DNA of 64,000 bases, taken from Stutzerimonas stutzeri. Its GTDB lineage: Bacteria; Pseudomonadota; Gammaproteobacteria; Pseudomonadales; Pseudomonadaceae. Both the position numbers and the translations under genes were made by a program. The stretch lies in NCBI RefSeq assembly GCF_019090095.1, contig NZ_JAGQFP010000002.1, positions 558,001 through 622,000 on the forward strand. The letters are read 5' to 3'. This document shows, one piece after another, positions 30,980-38,473 of this stretch. The notes beneath the pieces are model-generated. The model did not search any database and had not been told where the DNA came from. It saw nothing but the letters and a program-made list of their open reading frames with translations. Numbering within the stretch: position 1 is the first letter of the stretch; each line of letters begins with the position of its first letter.

Positions 30980-33900
30980 ATGCTCAGCCTCTACCACGCT
31001 CCTGACCTCGAAACCCTCGGCGAACTGGCCACACGCCTGCTTGCCCAGCCGCTCGCCGATCCCTTTGCGCCGGCGCAGGTGGTGGTGCCGAGCCAGGGCA
31101 TGGGGCGCTGGCTGACCCTGGAGCTGGCGCGCAAGCAGGGCATCGCCATGCAGCTGGAGATTCAATTGCCGGCCAAATTCGTCTGGGACCTGAGCCGCAC
31201 CGTGCTGGGCAGCCTGCCGGAGCAATCGGCGTTCTCCCCGACGACCCTGACCTGGCGTCTGTATGGCTGGCTGTGCGAAGCGTCCAGCCTCGAACTGGCG
31301 CCACGTCTGGCGCAATACCTCGACGGCGGTGACGAGCGCCGACGCTTGTCGCTGGCGGCCAAGATCGCCGACGTCTTCGACCAATACCTGCTCTATCGCG
31401 ACGACTGGCTGGCCGCCTGGGAGCGCGGCGAAACCCTCGACCTCGGCCCCGACGAAGCCTGGCAGGCGCTGCTCTGGCGTGAACTGACCAAGGACGGCCA
31501 CCCGCACCGCGCACGGCTGCTCGGCGACCTGCTGCAACGCCTTTACAGCGACGAACCCTTGCCCGGCCTGCCCGAGCGCTTGCTGGTGTTCGGCATCAGC
31601 AGCCTGCCACCGCACCACCTGCGCGTGCTCGACGGCCTGGCGCGGCATATCGACGTGGTGGTCTGCGCGCTCAACCCGAGCCGCGAGGCCTGGGGCGAGA
31701 TCCGCGACATTCGCGAGCTGGCCAGGCAACCGGAGAGCGGGGCTGACGATTGGTATCTCGACGTGGGCCATCCGTTGCTGGCAAGCCTTGGCAAGCAGGG
31801 CCGCGACTTCTTCGATTCGTTGTTCAGCCTGACCGCCAGCGAAGGCAGCCAGGAGTTCGGCCTCTATTCCGAAGACGAAGACCTGCGTGACGACAGCCTG
31901 CTGCACGCGTTGCAGAACGACATCCTGCGCCTGCGCACCCGGCAGCCCGATGAGCGCGTCACGTTTGGCGAGAATGATCGCTCGCTGGAAGTGCACATTG
32001 CGCACTCGCCGCTGCGCGAGGTCGAGATCCTGCATGATCAGCTCCTGGCGCGGTTCGCCGCCGACCCCGAGCTGAGCCCGGATCAGGTGGTGGTGCTGAC
32101 CCCGGACATCGAGCGCTACGCGCCCTTCATCGAAGCCGTCTTCGCCCCGCGCGAGGGCAGCCCGCGGATTCCCTACAGCCTTGCCGACCGCAGCCTGCGC
32201 GCCGAAATGCCGCTGATCGAAGCCTTTCTCGAATTGCTGATGCTGGCGCAGAGCCGCTTCGCCGCCGAGGAAATCCTCGCCTGGCTGGAGCAGCCGGCCA
32301 TTGCCCGACGCGCCGGAATCGAAAGCGAAGACCTGCCGCTGCTGCGCGACTGGTTGCGCGACGCCGGCGTGCGCTGGGGGCGCGACGGCAGCCAGCGGGC
32401 CCGCCTGGGGCTGCCGGACGAATCGGCCTTTACCTGGCGCCAGGGGCTGGACCGCCTACTGCTGGGCTTTGCCGCGCCGCCGCAGCTGGCCGGAGACAGT
32501 GCGCCATTGCTCGGCGAACACTGGCCACTGGATGCGCTGGAAGGCGCGCGTGGGCAGTTGCTCGGTCGCCTGGTGGAGTTTGTCGAGCGCCTCGGCAACC
32601 TCGCCGATCAGCTGGCGCGACCACGACCGTTGGCCGAATGGGCCGACGATCTGCAGGTGCTGATCGACACCCTGTTCGATGAGCGCGAAGCCGGCGACAC
32701 GTTGCTCTTGCTCTCCCAGGCCTGCGCGGCGTTGCGCGAACAGGCGCTGGCGGCCGACCTGACCCGGCCCATCGACCTGGAGCTGGTGCACCAGCAGCTC
32801 AGCGCCGCGCTGCAGCAGGGCGGTGGCGCCTCGGGCTTTCTCACCGGCGCCGTGACCTTCTGCACCATGGTGCCGATGCGCAGCCTGCCGTTCCGCGTGG
32901 TCTGCCTGCTGGGCCTGGACGATGGCGCCTTTCCGCGGCGCACGCCGCCGTCGGGCTTCGACCTGATCGGGCGCCACCCGCGCCGTGGCGACCGGGCGCG
33001 GCGCCTCGACGACCGCTATCTGCTGCTGGAAACCCTGCTGTCGGCGCGCGAAGCGCTGTACCTGTCCTATGTCGGCCGCGACCCGCGCGACAACGCCGTG
33101 CTGCCGCCTTCGGTGCTGCTCAGTGAGGTGCTCGAAGCCGTCGATATGACCGCCACGCTGACGCCTGCTGATCCGGCATCCGGGGGCGCTGACGAGCCCG
33201 CGGCCAAGACGGTCAGCCAGAAGATCCTTGTCGCCCACCCGTTGCAGCCGTTTTCGCCACGGAATTTCCGCGATGCGCCTTGCGCCGGCTTCTCGCTACC
33301 CTGGTATCGCGCCGCCCAGCGCCTCGCCGAGCCGCCGCAGACCCAGCCGCAGCCGTTCGCCAGCTTGCTCGCGGAACCCGACGAGGCGTGGCTGACCATC
33401 GAGCCGTCGCAGCTGTTGCAGTGCTTCCGTCATCCGGCGCGCTTCCTGCTCGAGCAGCGTCTCGGTCTGCGCCTGGCCGACGACCAGGAATCGCTCGCCA
33501 GCGACGAGCCTTTCGACCTGGAAATGCCGGCCTGGAACGGCCTGCGGCGGCTATCCCTACAAGCGGTGGAACACGGCTGGAGCGATGACGACGAGCGGCG
33601 CATGGCCTGTGCCGCTGGCTGGCTGCCCACCGGCGAGCTGGGCCAGGCGCTGTGGGGCAAGCTGCGCGGGCCGGTGCGTGCCTTCGCGCCGCGGCTGTTC
33701 GAGCTGCGCCCGGACGCCGTGCCCGAGCCGCTGCCGGTGGACATCACCCTGGCCGGTATCCGTGTGCATGGCTGGCTCGACGGCGTGACGCCGGCCGGCT
33801 TGTTCGGCTGGAAGCTCGGCAAGCTGGGCGAGTGGGATCTGCCGCCGTTCTGGCTGCGCCACTTGCTGCTCAACCTGTCCGCCACGCCCGGTATCGAACG

Positions 33901-34291
33901 CAACAGCCTGATGCTGTCGCCTGCCGGCGATTGGCAGCTGGGGCCGCTGGCCAATGCCGCCGAGCTGCTCGAACCCTGGCTCGCGGCCTATCGCTGCGCC
34001 ATTCGCGAGCCGCTGCCGCTGCTGCCGCGCAGCAGCCACGCCTTTGCCAAGGGCTACCGCAAACCGGCGCGCGGCAGCGAACCCATCGAGACGGCCCGCA
34101 AGCGGGCGCGGGAGGCCTGGGTGGGGGCTGAGTTCAGCCCCATCGCCGCCGAGTCCGAAGACCCCTGGAATGCCTTGGCCTTCCGTGATCGCGATCCGCT
34201 CGACGAGCGATTCGAAACCCTGGCCCAACGGCTGATAGGCCCGGCGCTGGATGCATTGGCGAATGGAGAGGAGCAGAGCGATGACGTCTGA
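30980..34291 (+). CDS. recC: Exodeoxyribonuclease V gamma subunit RecC
   Basis: A 1103-residue subunit of RecBCD, which processes double-strand breaks for RecA-dependent recombination and degrades linear DNA. RecC holds the complex together and recognises Chi-type sites. Family features are the N-terminal VVVPSQGMGRWLTLELA, VFGISSLPPHHL, and LLGLDDGAFPRRTPPSGFDL. Its helicase-like folds lack functional Walker motifs, as expected for RecC. The ATG at 30980 has only a weak ribosome binding site. The usual close junction with recB is replaced here by a 633-base gap holding a long inverted repeat. Confidence 0.96.
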   Translation: MLSLYHAPDLETLGELATRLLAQPLADPFAPAQVVVPSQGMGRWLTLELARKQGIAMQLEIQLPAKFVWDLSRTVLGSLPEQSAFSPTTLTWRLYGWLCEASSLELAPRLAQYLDGGDERRRLSLAAKIADVFDQYLLYRDDWLAAWERGETLDLGPDEAWQALLWRELTKDGHPHRARLLGDLLQRLYSDEPLPGLPERLLVFGISSLPPHHLRVLDGLARHIDVVVCALNPSREAWGEIRDIRELARQPESGADDWYLDVGHPLLASLGKQGRDFFDSLFSLTASEGSQEFGLYSEDEDLRDDSLLHALQNDILRLRTRQPDERVTFGENDRSLEVHIAHSPLREVEILHDQLLARFAADPELSPDQVVVLTPDIERYAPFIEAVFAPREGSPRIPYSLADRSLRAEMPLIEAFLELLMLAQSRFAAEEILAWLEQPAIARRAGIESEDLPLLRDWLRDAGVRWGRDGSQRARLGLPDESAFTWRQGLDRLLLGFAAPPQLAGDSAPLLGEHWPLDALEGARGQLLGRLVEFVERLGNLADQLARPRPLAEWADDLQVLIDTLFDEREAGDTLLLLSQACAALREQALAADLTRPIDLELVHQQLSAALQQGGGASGFLTGAVTFCTMVPMRSLPFRVVCLLGLDDGAFPRRTPPSGFDLIGRHPRRGDRARRLDDRYLLLETLLSAREALYLSYVGRDPRDNAVLPPSVLLSEVLEAVDMTATLTPADPASGGADEPAAKTVSQKILVAHPLQPFSPRNFRDAPCAGFSLPWYRAAQRLAEPPQTQPQPFASLLAEPDEAWLTIEPSQLLQCFRHPARFLLEQRLGLRLADDQESLASDEPFDLEMPAWNGLRRLSLQAVEHGWSDDDERRMACAAGWLPTGELGQALWGKLRGPVRAFAPRLFELRPDAVPEPLPVDITLAGIRVHGWLDGVTPAGLFGWKLGKLGEWDLPPFWLRHLLLNLSATPGIERNSLMLSPAGDWQLGPLANAAELLEPWLAAYRCAIREPLPLLPRSSHAFAKGYRKPARGSEPIETARKRAREAWVGAEFSPIAAESEDPWNALAFRDRDPLDERFETLAQRLIGPALDALANGEEQSDDV

Positions 34292-34330
34292 AGCATTGTG
34301 TCTCCACTTGCTGCCGTGCCTGTTCGGCGG

Positions 34331-34880
34331 TCAGGGTTTCGCCCCTGACGGGCGAGTCACTTTCTCTTTGCTTGTGCAAAGAGAAAGTAACCAAAGAGAA
34401 AGCACACCCCGCATCCGGCCCCGGCTGCGCCGGGGTTCCCTCGCTCCATCCCTGCTCCGGCGGCACGCAGCGAAGGGCCATCCCTGGCCCATCGCTGCTC
34501 TCGCGGCATCCATGCCGCTCGACCGCCTGCGCAGCGATTCCACTCGGCCTCCTGAGGGGCCCCGGTCCGCGGCGCCAGCTTATTTCCGTATCCGTGTCTC
34601 CGGTGTTGGCATCACCCGCACGCACTGTCAGGCCCCGCATGAATCCCCTTCAGGAGGCCGAGCGCAGGCGTTGTGTAGGGGGACGCGAGGCATGGATGCC
34701 GAGCGAGGAATGACGGGGCAGGGACGCCCCGTCATGACGTGCCCCCGGAGCAGCGCCGGAGCGAGGGAAGTCTGGCCGCGCAGCGGCCAGACCCGGATGT
34801 TGGGGCGCGCTTTCTTTTGCTTACTTTTCTTTGCGCGGGCAAAGAAAAGTAAGGCGCCCAGCGGGGCGCAACCCGAGGGT
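34331..34880. repeat. Long imperfect inverted-repeat element between recC and recB
   Basis: The 633 bases between recC and recB contain two arms of about 235 bases, 34331-34560 and 34644-34880, that are imperfect reverse complements around an 83-base centre. Matching landmarks are spaced alike in each arm: A/T-rich hairpins at 34359-34388 (13-bp stem) and 34820-34853 (15-bp stem); GC hairpins at 34416-34434 and 34772-34791; TCCCTCGCT at 34437-34445 with AGCGAGGGA at 34760-34768; CGGCATCCATGCC at 34504-34516 with GGCATGGATGCCG at 34689-34701; and GGCCTCCTGAGGGG at 34546-34559 with CCCCTTCAGGAGGCC. Weak similarity continues outward to about 34312 and 34895. I have an impression of similar long palindromes elsewhere in pseudomonad and xanthomonad genomes, which I cannot check here. 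No transposase is present. Confidence 0.85.
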
Positions 34881-34924
34881 GTGGCCAGCACTGCAAAGTC
34901 GGCTTTGGCTCGGAGGATCATGCC

Positions 34925-37900
34925 ATGAAACTCGACCTGCTCGACTCCCCCTTCGATGGCCGCTCGCTGATCGAGGCCAGCGCCGGCACCGGCAAGACCT
35001 GGACGCTCACCGCGCTCTATGCGCGTTTGCTGCTGGAGCGGCAGCTGTCGGTGGGGCAGATCCTCGTGGTGACCTACACCACCGCCGCCACCGCCGAGCT
35101 GCGCGAGCGCATCCGTGCGCGGCTGGCCGACCTGTTGGCGGTCTATGACGGCACACCCAGCGATGACGACTTCCTCAATCGGCTGCATGCGCGCTACCCG
35201 GACGAAGCCTCGCGGCGGCGCCTGTTGCTGGCCGTGCACGGCTTCGACGAGGCGGCGATCTTCACCATCCATGGCTTCTGTCAGCGCGCGCTGCAGGACG
35301 CGGCGTTCGAGGCCGGTGGCGATTTCGACAGCGAGCTGACCGCCGACGACCGCGAGATCATCGATGCGTTGCTCGCCGACGCCTGGCGCAGCGAGCTGGC
35401 CGACGCCGATCCGGCCTGGGCGCGCTTCCTGGCCAAGAGCCGGATCACACCCCAGTGGTTACGCCAGCGGCTGCGCAGCCATCTGGGCAAGCCCTATCTG
35501 CGGGTCGAACCCCAGGGCGCACCGGTCGCCGCTGATTTGCGCCCGGTGGAGGCTGCCTGGCAGCGCGCGGCTGAATTGTGGAAAAGCGCCGGCACCGCCT
35601 GGGTTGCCGAACTGCTGGCCCATGGCGGCCTGAGCCAGAGCACCCACAAGAGCATCAAGTTTGCCCCCTGGCAGGCGGAACTGGACGCCTATTTCGCCGA
35701 CCCGGCCGTGATGTTCGACCTGCCCGAGGGGGCCGCCAAGTTCGGTGTCCGTGCGCTGAGCAAGGCCTGCAAGAAGGGGCATGACGCGCCCGTGTGTGAG
35801 CTTGCCCATGCACTGGACGCGCTGGCCGATCAGGTTGCCGAGGCGTTGCCAGCGGGCAAGCAGCGACTGATCGCGCTACAGGTCGCGCTACTGGAACGGC
35901 TCAACCGAGAGCTGCCCGAGCGCAAGGCGGCGCAGCGGCTGCTGGCTTTCGATGATCTGCTCAACCGTCTGGATCAGGCGTTGCAAGGCCCGGTCGGCGA
36001 AGACCTGGCCGCTTCGTTGCGTGCGACCTATCCACTGGCGCTGATCGACGAATTCCAGGACACCGACCCGATCCAGTACGCCATCTTCGACCGTATCTAT
36101 GCCAACGCCAGCGAGGCGTCGCTGTGCTTCGTCGGCGATCCCAAGCAGGCGATCTACGCCTTCCGCGGTGCGGACCTGGCGACCTACATGACCGCCAAGC
36201 AACAGGCCGACCGCGAGCCCTTCAACCTGCCGACCAACTACCGCTCGACGCCCGCGCTGATCGCCGCCCTGAACCAGCTGTTCAAGCACCCTCAACCTTT
36301 TGCCCAACCGGATCTCCGCTATCCGGCCGTCGGCGCGGCCGACAAGCCGCGCGCCACGCTGCGTCTGGTGGAAGAGGGCGAGGCGGCGCCGCTGTCGCTG
36401 GTCTGGCTCGGCGACGATCCGCTGGGCAAGGGCGAGGCCGCGCAACTGGCGGCGAGCGACACCGCACGACGCATCGCCCTGCAGCTGGCGGCTGCCGCCG
36501 AAGGCCGGGCAGGCTTCGACAAGGACGGCCGGTTCACCCCGCTCAAGGGCGGCGATATCGCCGTGCTGGTGGCCAACCATCGCCAGGCCGGGATGATCGC
36601 CGATGAGCTGGCCGCCCGCGGCGTGCCCAGCGTACGGCGTGGGCGCGACAGCGTCTGGCGCAGCGAAGAGGCCGGTGAGCTGGCCGCGGTGCTGGCCGCC
36701 TACGCCGAGCCCGGTCGCGAAGGCTTGCTGCGTTATGCCCTGGCCACCCGATTGCTGGGCCGCAGCGCCGCCGATCTGGCCCGCTGCCAGGACGATCAGC
36801 AGCAGTGGGATGCCGAGCGCGAAGCCGCCGAGCGCTATCACCAGCTCTGGCAGCAGCAGGGCTTTATGCGCGTGTTCCGTGCCTGGCTCGACGAGCAGGC
36901 GGTTGCCGAACGGCTGCTGGCGCGGGTCGATGGCGAGCGGCGGCTGACCAACCTGCTGCACCTGGGTGAGCTGCTCCAGGCCGAAAGCCTGTTGCGCCCC
37001 GGGCTGGAGCCGCTGCTCGCCTGGTTCAACGCGCAACGCGGCAGCGAAGGCGCTGGCGAGGAAGCCCTGCTGCGCCTGGAAAGCGATGCCGAGCGGGTGC
37101 AGATCGTCACCATCCACACCAGCAAGGGCCTGGAATACCCGTTGGTGTTCTGCCCGTTCCTGTGGGACGGCAAGCTGCTCGGCAAAAACCGCGACAGCGC
37201 TCGCTGCCACGGCGCTGATGGCCAGCCGTTGCTGGATCTTGGCAGTGATGAATTGGAGGACAACCTCGACCGCGCTCGTGAGGAAGTCTTTGCCGAACAG
37301 CTGCGACTGGCCTACGTCGCGCTGACCCGCGCCCGTGACAGGCTTTGGCTGCATTGGGGGCCAGTGTGCCTGTGCAAGCCGAAGAAGGACGGCACGCTCG
37401 CCGACGAAGGCCTGCACACCAGTGCACTGGCCTGGCTGCTGCACGGCCGCGAGCTGCCGGGTGAGCATCCGCTGAGTGAGCTGGGCATCCATCTGGCGGA
37501 CCTCAACGGCGGCAGCCTGCGCCAGGCCATCGAGCGACTGGCGCAGGGAAGCGACGGTCATATGGCCTGCCTGCCGCTGGAATCACGCGAGGCCAGCGCG
37601 CAGGGCCCCGGCCGGGCCGCGCCACCGCAGCAGCTGTCGCAGCTCAATCGCAGCCTGCACAGTGCCTGGCGGATCGGCAGTTTTTCCGGCCTTGCCGCCG
37701 GCATGCACATGGAGGCGCCCGACCGCGACGCCCTGGCCATCCCCGATGCTGGCGAGCCGGGCAGTGGCTTCTTCGCCTTTCCCCGCGGTGCACGGGCCGG
37801 GACCTGCCTGCACGCGATCCTCGAAGATTGGGCGCGCGGCAAAGGGGCATTGCCTGATTTGGTCGAACCTGCGCTGCAAGCCTACGGCCTGCCACTGGAA

Positions 37901-38473
37901 TGGAAGCTGATCGCCACCGAACATCTGCAACGGGTGCTCGACACCGATCTGGACGATACCGGCCTGACGCTCGCCGCGTTGCAATCGGCCCGACGCCTGC
38001 CGGAACTGGGCTTCACCTTTCCCGTACGGGATCTGGACGTGGCGCGGCTGCGCACTCTGTTGGTCGATCCGGCCAACGGCCTCGCCGCCCCCTTGCGTGA
38101 GGCGGCGGCGCGGCTGGAGTTCGACAGCCTCAAGGGCTTTCTCAAGGGCTTTATCGACCTGACCTTCGAGCACGACGGCCGCTGGTACATCGCCGACTAC
38201 AAATCCAACTGGCTCGGCCCGGATGCCAGCTACTACGGTGGCGAGCGGCTGCTGCAGGCGCTGGCAGGCGAGCATTACTACCTGCAATACCTGATCTACC
38301 TGGTAGCGCTGCGCCGCTTCCTGCGTCAGCGCCTGGCCGATTTCCGCGACGAGCAGCTGGGTGGAGCCTTCTACCTGTTCCTGCGCGGGATGCCCGAGGC
38401 GGGTGTGTATTTCGCACGGCCCGATGATGCCTTGCTCGATGCGCTGGATCGCCTGTTCGAGGAGGGGCGATGA
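34925..38473 (+). CDS. recB: Exodeoxyribonuclease V beta subunit RecB
   Basis: A 1182-residue helicase-nuclease subunit of RecBCD. The UvrD-type 3'-5' helicase has Walker A EASAGTGKTWTL (Lys24), the DEFQDTDPIQY motif, LPTNYRSTPALI and TIHTSKGLEYP. The C-terminal PD-(D/E)XK nuclease shows GFIDLTF and IADYKSNWLG with Asp1091 and Lys1093. The ATG at 34925 is preceded by GGAGG at 34912-34916. It starts just downstream of the inverted-repeat element, so its expression depends on read-through from recC or on a promoter in or after that element. Confidence 0.97.
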   Translation: MKLDLLDSPFDGRSLIEASAGTGKTWTLTALYARLLLERQLSVGQILVVTYTTAATAELRERIRARLADLLAVYDGTPSDDDFLNRLHARYPDEASRRRLLLAVHGFDEAAIFTIHGFCQRALQDAAFEAGGDFDSELTADDREIIDALLADAWRSELADADPAWARFLAKSRITPQWLRQRLRSHLGKPYLRVEPQGAPVAADLRPVEAAWQRAAELWKSAGTAWVAELLAHGGLSQSTHKSIKFAPWQAELDAYFADPAVMFDLPEGAAKFGVRALSKACKKGHDAPVCELAHALDALADQVAEALPAGKQRLIALQVALLERLNRELPERKAAQRLLAFDDLLNRLDQALQGPVGEDLAASLRATYPLALIDEFQDTDPIQYAIFDRIYANASEASLCFVGDPKQAIYAFRGADLATYMTAKQQADREPFNLPTNYRSTPALIAALNQLFKHPQPFAQPDLRYPAVGAADKPRATLRLVEEGEAAPLSLVWLGDDPLGKGEAAQLAASDTARRIALQLAAAAEGRAGFDKDGRFTPLKGGDIAVLVANHRQAGMIADELAARGVPSVRRGRDSVWRSEEAGELAAVLAAYAEPGREGLLRYALATRLLGRSAADLARCQDDQQQWDAEREAAERYHQLWQQQGFMRVFRAWLDEQAVAERLLARVDGERRLTNLLHLGELLQAESLLRPGLEPLLAWFNAQRGSEGAGEEALLRLESDAERVQIVTIHTSKGLEYPLVFCPFLWDGKLLGKNRDSARCHGADGQPLLDLGSDELEDNLDRAREEVFAEQLRLAYVALTRARDRLWLHWGPVCLCKPKKDGTLADEGLHTSALAWLLHGRELPGEHPLSELGIHLADLNGGSLRQAIERLAQGSDGHMACLPLESREASAQGPGRAAPPQQLSQLNRSLHSAWRIGSFSGLAAGMHMEAPDRDALAIPDAGEPGSGFFAFPRGARAGTCLHAILEDWARGKGALPDLVEPALQAYGLPLEWKLIATEHLQRVLDTDLDDTGLTLAALQSARRLPELGFTFPVRDLDVARLRTLLVDPANGLAAPLREAAARLEFDSLKGFLKGFIDLTFEHDGRWYIADYKSNWLGPDASYYGGERLLQALAGEHYYLQYLIYLVALRRFLRQRLADFRDEQLGGAFYLFLRGMPEAGVYFARPDDALLDALDRLFEEGR

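Follow-up and report, generated by a model that had tools for sequence, protein, structure and literature searches.

The recC and recB genes of this Stutzerimonas stutzeri contig are separated by a long palindrome built of nested hairpins, which raises the question of what such an element is and what it may do to the operon that it interrupts. The initial annotation named a mobile non-autonomous element, a structured RNA and a regulator of recB level as candidates. All coordinates refer to the window, the whole stretch of 64,000 nucleotides that was analysed. Below, R1 is a covariance model built from 17 arms of the host genome, L031 is the locus that holds the window copy, and the element is laid out as follows.

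34334..34878, no strand assigned: palindromic element, its outer limits set by the terminal hairpins and not by a target duplication
34334..34575, minus strand: left arm, its outward (loop-showing) strand being minus (R1 match L031 2407-2560, fold)
34406-34559: model core (R1) of the left arm
34356..34391, no strand assigned: hairpin h1 of the left arm (inverted-repeat search)
34560..34645, no strand assigned: interior separating the two model cores, 86 nt
34630..34878, plus strand: right arm, its outward strand being plus (R1 match L031 2647-2806, fold)
34646-34805: model core (R1) of the right arm
34820..34853, no strand assigned: hairpin h1 of the right arm (inverted-repeat search)

When one arm was aligned to the other in inverted orientation (34334-34575 versus 34630-34878), 184 of 258 columns were identical (71%); with one arm shuffled 200 times, identity averaged 52% and never exceeded 57%. 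A repeat search also recovered an ungapped inverted repeat of 151 nt with 73% complementarity (34409-34559 versus 34646-34796). The arms are thus imperfect reverse complements, as first described, at an identity well clear of chance, and the repeat search and folds agree with the further statement that small hairpins are matched across the arms in the same order.

The genes on either side and the likely start region of recB are placed as follows.

30980..34291, plus strand: recC, left neighbour, an open reading frame of 1103 aa named from the initial annotation and the order recC-recB-recD
34925..38473, plus strand: recB, right neighbour, an open reading frame of 1182 aa whose start shares nucleotides with the recC stop in all 29 relatives read
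34912..34917, plus strand: GGAGGA, likely ribosome-binding site of recB, which contains GGA (read from the sequence, with a putative function)

Using the end of recC as an in-frame query in 58 genomes including the host, we found 32 relatives that match over most of the query and read the junction in 29 of them (30 loci including the host; G002, G026 and G029, with a long recC match, were left out). In all 29 relatives, recC ends within the start of recB, with 4 nt (ATGA) in common, whereas 633 nt lie between the recC stop (34291) and the recB start (34925) of the host genome. The palindromic element is therefore an insertion between recC and recB that is not common to the relatives and that also removed the overlap of the two genes, which bears out the claim that they are normally near-contiguous and are split here. 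Inspection by eye revealed no clear target-site duplication at recC-recB, and likewise left the exact ends of the element unsettled.

The insert belongs to a repeat family. BLAST of the element against the host genome gave 32 matches at nine loci, at which the arms are similar and the interiors different. Across 97 paired elements, among which L032 is wrongly paired through a 22-bit match, interior length ranged from 58 to 1457 nt and was under 500 nt in 94. Matches to R1 were present in 52 of 56 genomes of the same genus, host included, at 0 to 48 arms per genome, and in 14 of 299 genomes across the phylum: 12 from the same family, one from the same order and one from the same class with weak scores. 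Copies thus occur both in the same genome and in other genomes, where the initial annotation had proposed to look for them. Scanning named GTDB contigs for the loop pattern identified at least 120 stretches, with Pseudomonas in 71 of 80 titles among the matches listed. R1 arm counts in 11 genomes chosen among the matches listed extended from 2 (Methylomonas) up to 122 (P. umsongensis), and two strains of P. putida had 44 and 21. The loop pattern was also present in 14 IMG/VR contigs. With one host copy as query, a plasmid search returned one matching record, a 4.9 Mb Aeromonas record, and phages gave no match.

Several observations on individual copies accompany this survey. In P. umsongensis (G375), 20 loci (L311-L330) share stretches that are 85-95% identical over up to about 1300 bp. 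The interiors of L032-L038, L313 and L323 often contain GTAG-type REP pairs, as if a repeat were nested in a repeat (by eye). Each of five viral contigs (L251, L253, L256, L257 and L258) has one arm, located at an almost equal offset in all of them (about 2800-2970) and with co-directional genes around it. In Methylomonas, one NYN-domain gene lies between two weak arm matches of 30 and 26 bits (L163 151-1729).

This distribution is what a selfish piece of non-autonomous DNA resembling a MITE or REPIN might leave behind; the hairpins and loops in single-stranded DNA would then be a signal for some transposase, and the RNA would have no role. The dispersal of the repeat, its variable number within the genus, its abundance and 85-95% identical stretches in P. 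umsongensis and the insertion at recC-recB all count for this explanation, as do interiors that often hold GTAG-type REPs by eye, RAYT mobilisation being discussed in the accessible text of PMC3733652. We nevertheless consider it unlikely, given a strand bias and a loop class that are set out below and given that the Y1 transposase genes of the host sit among different repeats. Of the mobile element first proposed, the repeat and the insertion stand (nine host loci, recC-recB); movement by some enzyme would be a presumption, and any particular way of spread a conjecture.

Two candidate partners were discarded. The two PF01797 genes of the host, considered as a transposase partner, lie among other, GTAG-type REPs and are not flanked by arms (by eye). 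As for a link to ISPpu8, no arm was found at 15 PF01609 (DDE_Tnp_1) loci of other strains, in 5 of the 12 genomes searched (best score, 11 bits).

The unit of the family is the arm. At many loci only one arm was detected, and in 52 paired elements the likeness of an arm to its own partner was 0.736, versus 0.753 between left and right arms of different elements, the own partner ranking at 0.56 (0.5 being random). In the same elements 95.6% of cells in local stems were Watson-Crick, as against 70.1% that would pair across the arms, and the local pair was retained in 93.9% of the 700 cells in which the arms differ. Local hairpins are kept and the long palindrome itself is not maintained, since being partners in one element does not make two arms more alike. 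These data do not support the palindrome as the point of the element. The same data bear on whether the palindrome could be a functional DNA feature in itself, for example a cruciform acted on by RecBCD or SbcCD. Its location within the recBCD operon invites that thought, and a further host copy (L033) adjoins an sbcD-type gene with an SbcD_C domain, which is only a curiosity. Set against partner arms that do not co-evolve, local pairs that persist where the arms diverge, and other host copies beside unrelated genes such as ureG/ureF and fliP/fliQ, this explanation seems to us very improbable.

Read outward, each arm consists of a P3 stem with hairpins P3b and P3a, followed by h2, h1 and a terminal hairpin. 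The P3 domains of the window copy are as follows.

34448..34538, minus strand: P3 domain of the left arm, a stem enclosing hairpins P3b and P3a
34667..34757, plus strand: P3 domain of the right arm, a stem enclosing hairpins P3b and P3a

These domains fold locally. The left arm (34444-34544, minus) reached -60.9 kcal/mol (z -5.09) outward and -53.7 kcal/mol (z -6.23) inward, and the right arm (34666-34766, plus) -58.2 kcal/mol (z -6.26) outward and -45.9 kcal/mol (z -4.20) inward, so that fold energy is lower outward in both arms while the shuffle z-scores are mixed on strand. Among 115 distinct arms, 95.6% of cells pair and 26 of 35 pairs show changes on both sides. The covariation score of these arms, in an alignment fitted to the covariance model, was 0.359, versus 0.141 when shuffled (0 of 500 shuffles reached 0.359) and at most 0.087 when slid. 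A MAFFT alignment of 17 arms likewise contained compensated changes in 15 of 35 pairs. For the entire element on the plus strand, the minimum-energy fold (-362 kcal/mol) joins the arms instead, with P3b buried and only P3a open, and folding during transcription would therefore matter. Folding the transcript, as had been suggested, thus gave two answers according to scale, local P3 domains and joined arms, and among the initial candidates the structured RNA is the one that covariation and the Rfam matches given below uphold, as a TwoAYGGAY-type module with two RsmA/CsrA-type loops.

The four loop-bearing hairpins of the window copy are these.

34505..34516, minus strand: left P3b, GGCATGGATGCC
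34475..34490, minus strand: left P3a, GGGCCAGGGATGGCCC
34689..34700, plus strand: right P3b, GGCATGGATGCC
34715..34730, plus strand: right P3a, GGGGCAGGGACGCCCC, a 10-bp stem with flanks

All four contain CANGGANG, a loop of the RsmA/CsrA type. The loops are AUGGAU and AGGGAC in the right arm and AUGGAU and AGGGAU in the left, that is, ANGGAY in every case and AYGGAY in one of the two per arm, and the window copy has GGA in a hairpin loop, the type that RsmA/CsrA prefers. Counting identical arms once (alignment A2, 115 of 120 rows), CANGGANG occurred on the outward strand in 112 of 115 distinct arms for P3a and 105 of 115 for P3b; as controls, the same arms gave 1 for h2 and 0 for P4, and on the inward strand 1 for P3a and 0 for P3b. 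In alignments A3 and A4 we left out the arms with the loop pattern that had been used to find them, which left 36 of 147 and 6 of 43 rows. These arms still had CANGGANG in P3a in 31 of 36 and 6 of 6 cases and in P3b in 21 of 36 and 2 of 6, and 11 of the 19 P3b misses are a five-base loop, AGGAC. ANGGA is constant and its N variable while the surrounding stems are exchanged, so the loops are more constant than their own stems. At two shared genomic sites, linked by flank similarity (14 and 10 loci; fliP/fliQ and WYL/sbcD in the host), both loops were retained in 48 of 48 arms. The pattern GGGNCANGGANGNCCC, which was derived from the family, occurs 14 times in the host genome, all 14 within elements, with 0 for the reversed control; the shorter GGCANGGANGCC gave 57 versus 12 in the host genome, with many occurrences outside elements. 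The host genome has one CsrA-family gene.

Base-pair exchanges show which strand of the outer P3 stem is favoured. Its seven pairs, read on the inward strand, gave 196 A-C versus 12 G-U, in 120 and 10 loci respectively and with kinship ignored; an inward A-C is an outward G-U, and all seven pairs lean to G-U on the outward strand. The bias fits what would be expected if the outward-strand RNA were under selection. The inner G-run of P3 leans the opposite way in A2 (25 G-U, 4 A-C), hairpin h2 is mixed for G-U and A-C, and pooling every pair in which Watson-Crick cells are the majority gives 242 and 146. A one-strand bias of the kind seen in the outer stem is not expected for DNA, which, together with loops of the class of RsmA sites, weighs against selfish DNA as the whole explanation; the element may be both selfish and active as RNA.

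A known RNA motif, TwoAYGGAY (Rfam RF01731), matches both arms.

34680..34744, plus strand: RF01731 TwoAYGGAY match, 38.4 bits, below the cut-off of 43
34462..34524, minus strand: RF01731 TwoAYGGAY match, 37.3 bits, below the cut-off of 43

At gathering cut-off no Rfam family was found in the element, and RF01731 appeared on both outward arms only at lower stringency, the window copy falling short of 43 bits. When 40 family loci were scanned, L031 with the window copy included, we obtained 31 RF01731 matches above cut-off in 24 of the 40 loci (4 of the 9 host loci), and all 31 lie on the outward strand of an R1 arm. Since other copies of the repeat pass the cut-off, the window element is a divergent TwoAYGGAY relative, deployed as an inverted pair inside recBCD. 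The sole Rfam match above cut-off in the window is an ivy-DE RNA (RF02999; 12832-12917, plus strand, 77.4 bits).

Taken together, we estimate a probability of about 0.68 that the element is an inserted inverted pair of TwoAYGGAY-type RNA modules whose outward-strand loops RsmA/CsrA would bind.

The copies were also placed in their genomic setting. Neighbours in the host genome include ureG/ureF, a WYL protein with an SbcD-type gene, fliP/fliQ, an MCP, a cation efflux gene, a GGDEF gene and a CAP12-type TIR gene, and the nine host elements lie seven in co-directional gaps, one in a divergent gap and one in a convergent gap with a weakly called gene. For the family as a whole we formed a set of 77 non-redundant elements, each with a called gene no more than 700 nt away on each side, from which 32 shared-site locus ids, k-mer duplicates and loci numbered L250 or higher had been removed. 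Of these, 37 were convergent, 33 co-directional and 7 divergent, compared to 22, 129 and 81 of 232 background gaps (gaps of 100-1500 nt from L130-L249 only, genes called by a simple codon model). Convergent gaps were enriched (Fisher, p 3e-12) and divergent gaps avoided (p 5e-6); the pattern fits transcription but also plain promoter avoidance. Single arms in co-directional gaps were oriented 6 with the mRNA and 9 against, which gives no clear orientation, and in such gaps under 300 nt, with no room for a partner arm, 5 with and 2 against.

Convergent enrichment (37/77 versus 22/232) and very stable local folds are also what one would look for in a passive hairpin block that protects or ends transcripts, a REP-like stabiliser or terminator in which the GGA loops are incidental. 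Such a block, however, gives no account of loops that are more constant than stems; the plus strand, moreover, has no terminator-like site and the minus strand a single one (1 versus 0.5 expected), and at least 7 of the 9 host copies lie between co-directional genes. We attach little weight to it, clearly less than to selfish DNA.

Defence cargo was entertained as an explanation for the family and dropped: the 7.7 kb arm-to-arm stretch of L264 consists of edd, glk, zwf, pgl and a rluB-type gene, with a weak third arm. Genes of defence type do lie in or beside arms at L150 3532-6369, L223 1534-3063, L224 4211-6049, L102 2205-3152 and L039 1076-1873, in a sample biased by the choice of open reading frames that the codon model had missed; the types are a PD-Lambda-2/RES-like cluster, a dGTPase, an anti-phage dCTP deaminase (395.5 bits, cut-off 400), GmrSD and a CAP12-type TIR.

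If the RsmA-binding reading is right, each arm read outward from the centre would form a stem around two CANGGANG hairpins bound by RsmA/CsrA, perhaps through a single dimer that spans the two. Given the inverted arms, an RNA transcribed through the element in either direction would present exactly one arm in the binding sense. No sigma-70-like promoter site was found in 34250-34960 with the sigma-70 consensus. In a recC-recB read-through mRNA the right arm, upstream of recB, would have the binding sense and the left arm the opposite one. The loops of the right arm lie about 200-230 nt before the recB start. Since the 4-nt overlap with recC is broken, we propose that translation of recB depends on its own start region, where an RsmA dimer held by the right arm could reach the GGA of GGAGGA at 34912-34917. 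Alternatively, the arm may simply titrate RsmA. That the element regulates recB, as first suggested, is possible.

A broader proposal, which we advance tentatively and would not favour at even odds, is that this spreading Pseudomonas RNA element serves both as a scattered RsmA/CsrA sponge and as a wiring module. Inverted two-site pairs inserted in or after operons would put mRNAs (recB, fliP/fliQ, ureG/ureF) under Gac/Rsm and, in high-copy genomes, would form a decoy pool beside RsmY/RsmZ; TwoAYGGAY would be its unit and the Rsm-bound palindromes of P. putida its copies. Were RsmA binding true, a repeat element would link single genes to a global post-transcriptional regulator, and the amount of free RsmA in a species would shift with its arm number, which runs from 0 to over 100.

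The proposed role can be set beside known Rsm targets. According to the accessible text of PMC7937890, CsrA/RsmA prefers RUACARGGAUGU in hairpin loops, and the high-affinity RsmE site SL2 of RsmZ is given as GGGCCATCAAGGACGATGGUCC in the available portion of a preprint (PMC12047976), a sequence that puts a CANGGANG loop on a stem closely similar to that of P3a. The sponge RNAs RsmY/RsmZ and those of CsrB type resemble the element in having several GGA hairpin loops per RNA, but our elements are multi-copy, lie inside or after other transcripts and have two GGA hairpins per arm. In P. putida KT2440, RNA from a "long palindromic region" downstream of PP_3547, a putative ISPpu8 insertion site, is enriched with RsmA, RsmE and RsmI, as is RNA from beside ISPpu8 copies; in the text available to us the authors leave the meaning of this palindromic RNA open (PMC7937890). 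ISPpu8 is described as an IS4-family element with six copies in KT2440 (PMC3056050, in part). The KT2440 region is described as long, palindromic and intergenic with Rsm-bound RNA, and the family is present in other P. putida strains; we would guess that the region is a copy of the repeat family.

Among dispersed repeats, the GTAG-type REP, REPIN and TIR sequences of RAYT/TIRYT genes are likewise palindromic, intergenic, present singly or as inverted pairs and enriched in convergent gaps (PMC3733652, in part). The arms differ in being about 240 nt long with no GTAG tag at their ends, and they are not 20-40 bp GTAG-tagged units beside a RAYT gene. R200 and R178 of P. fluorescens, also dispersed intergenic Pseudomonas repeats, of 100-350 bp, are similar as far as their description in the accessible text of PMC2718517 allows comparison. 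No description of the present repeat as Rsm-binding was found in searches of an open-access library.

The closest relative is TwoAYGGAY itself, an RNA from a computational screen (PMC2864571, in part) that Rfam lists under RF01731 as lacking an assigned function and as a predicted CsrA binder. In the consulted part of PMC4333381 CsrA binding is a prediction whose validation is called work in progress, and we found no test of it in the accessible text of open-access papers naming TwoAYGGAY. The family shares with it a domain of two hairpins with AYGGAY-type loops; the window copy differs in scoring below 43 bits and in having one AGGGAY loop per arm. In the literature, as far as it was accessible, TwoAYGGAY is a motif or possible sRNA and not the unit of a dispersed inverted-pair insert. 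The motif and its predicted CsrA binding were thus already known, and what is new is a variant that occurs as an inverted-pair insert with a concrete, testable function. For TwoAYGGAY, this adds a setting (a dispersed inverted-pair Pseudomonas repeat), a strand, a covariation-supported fold and a possible in vivo lead from published work.
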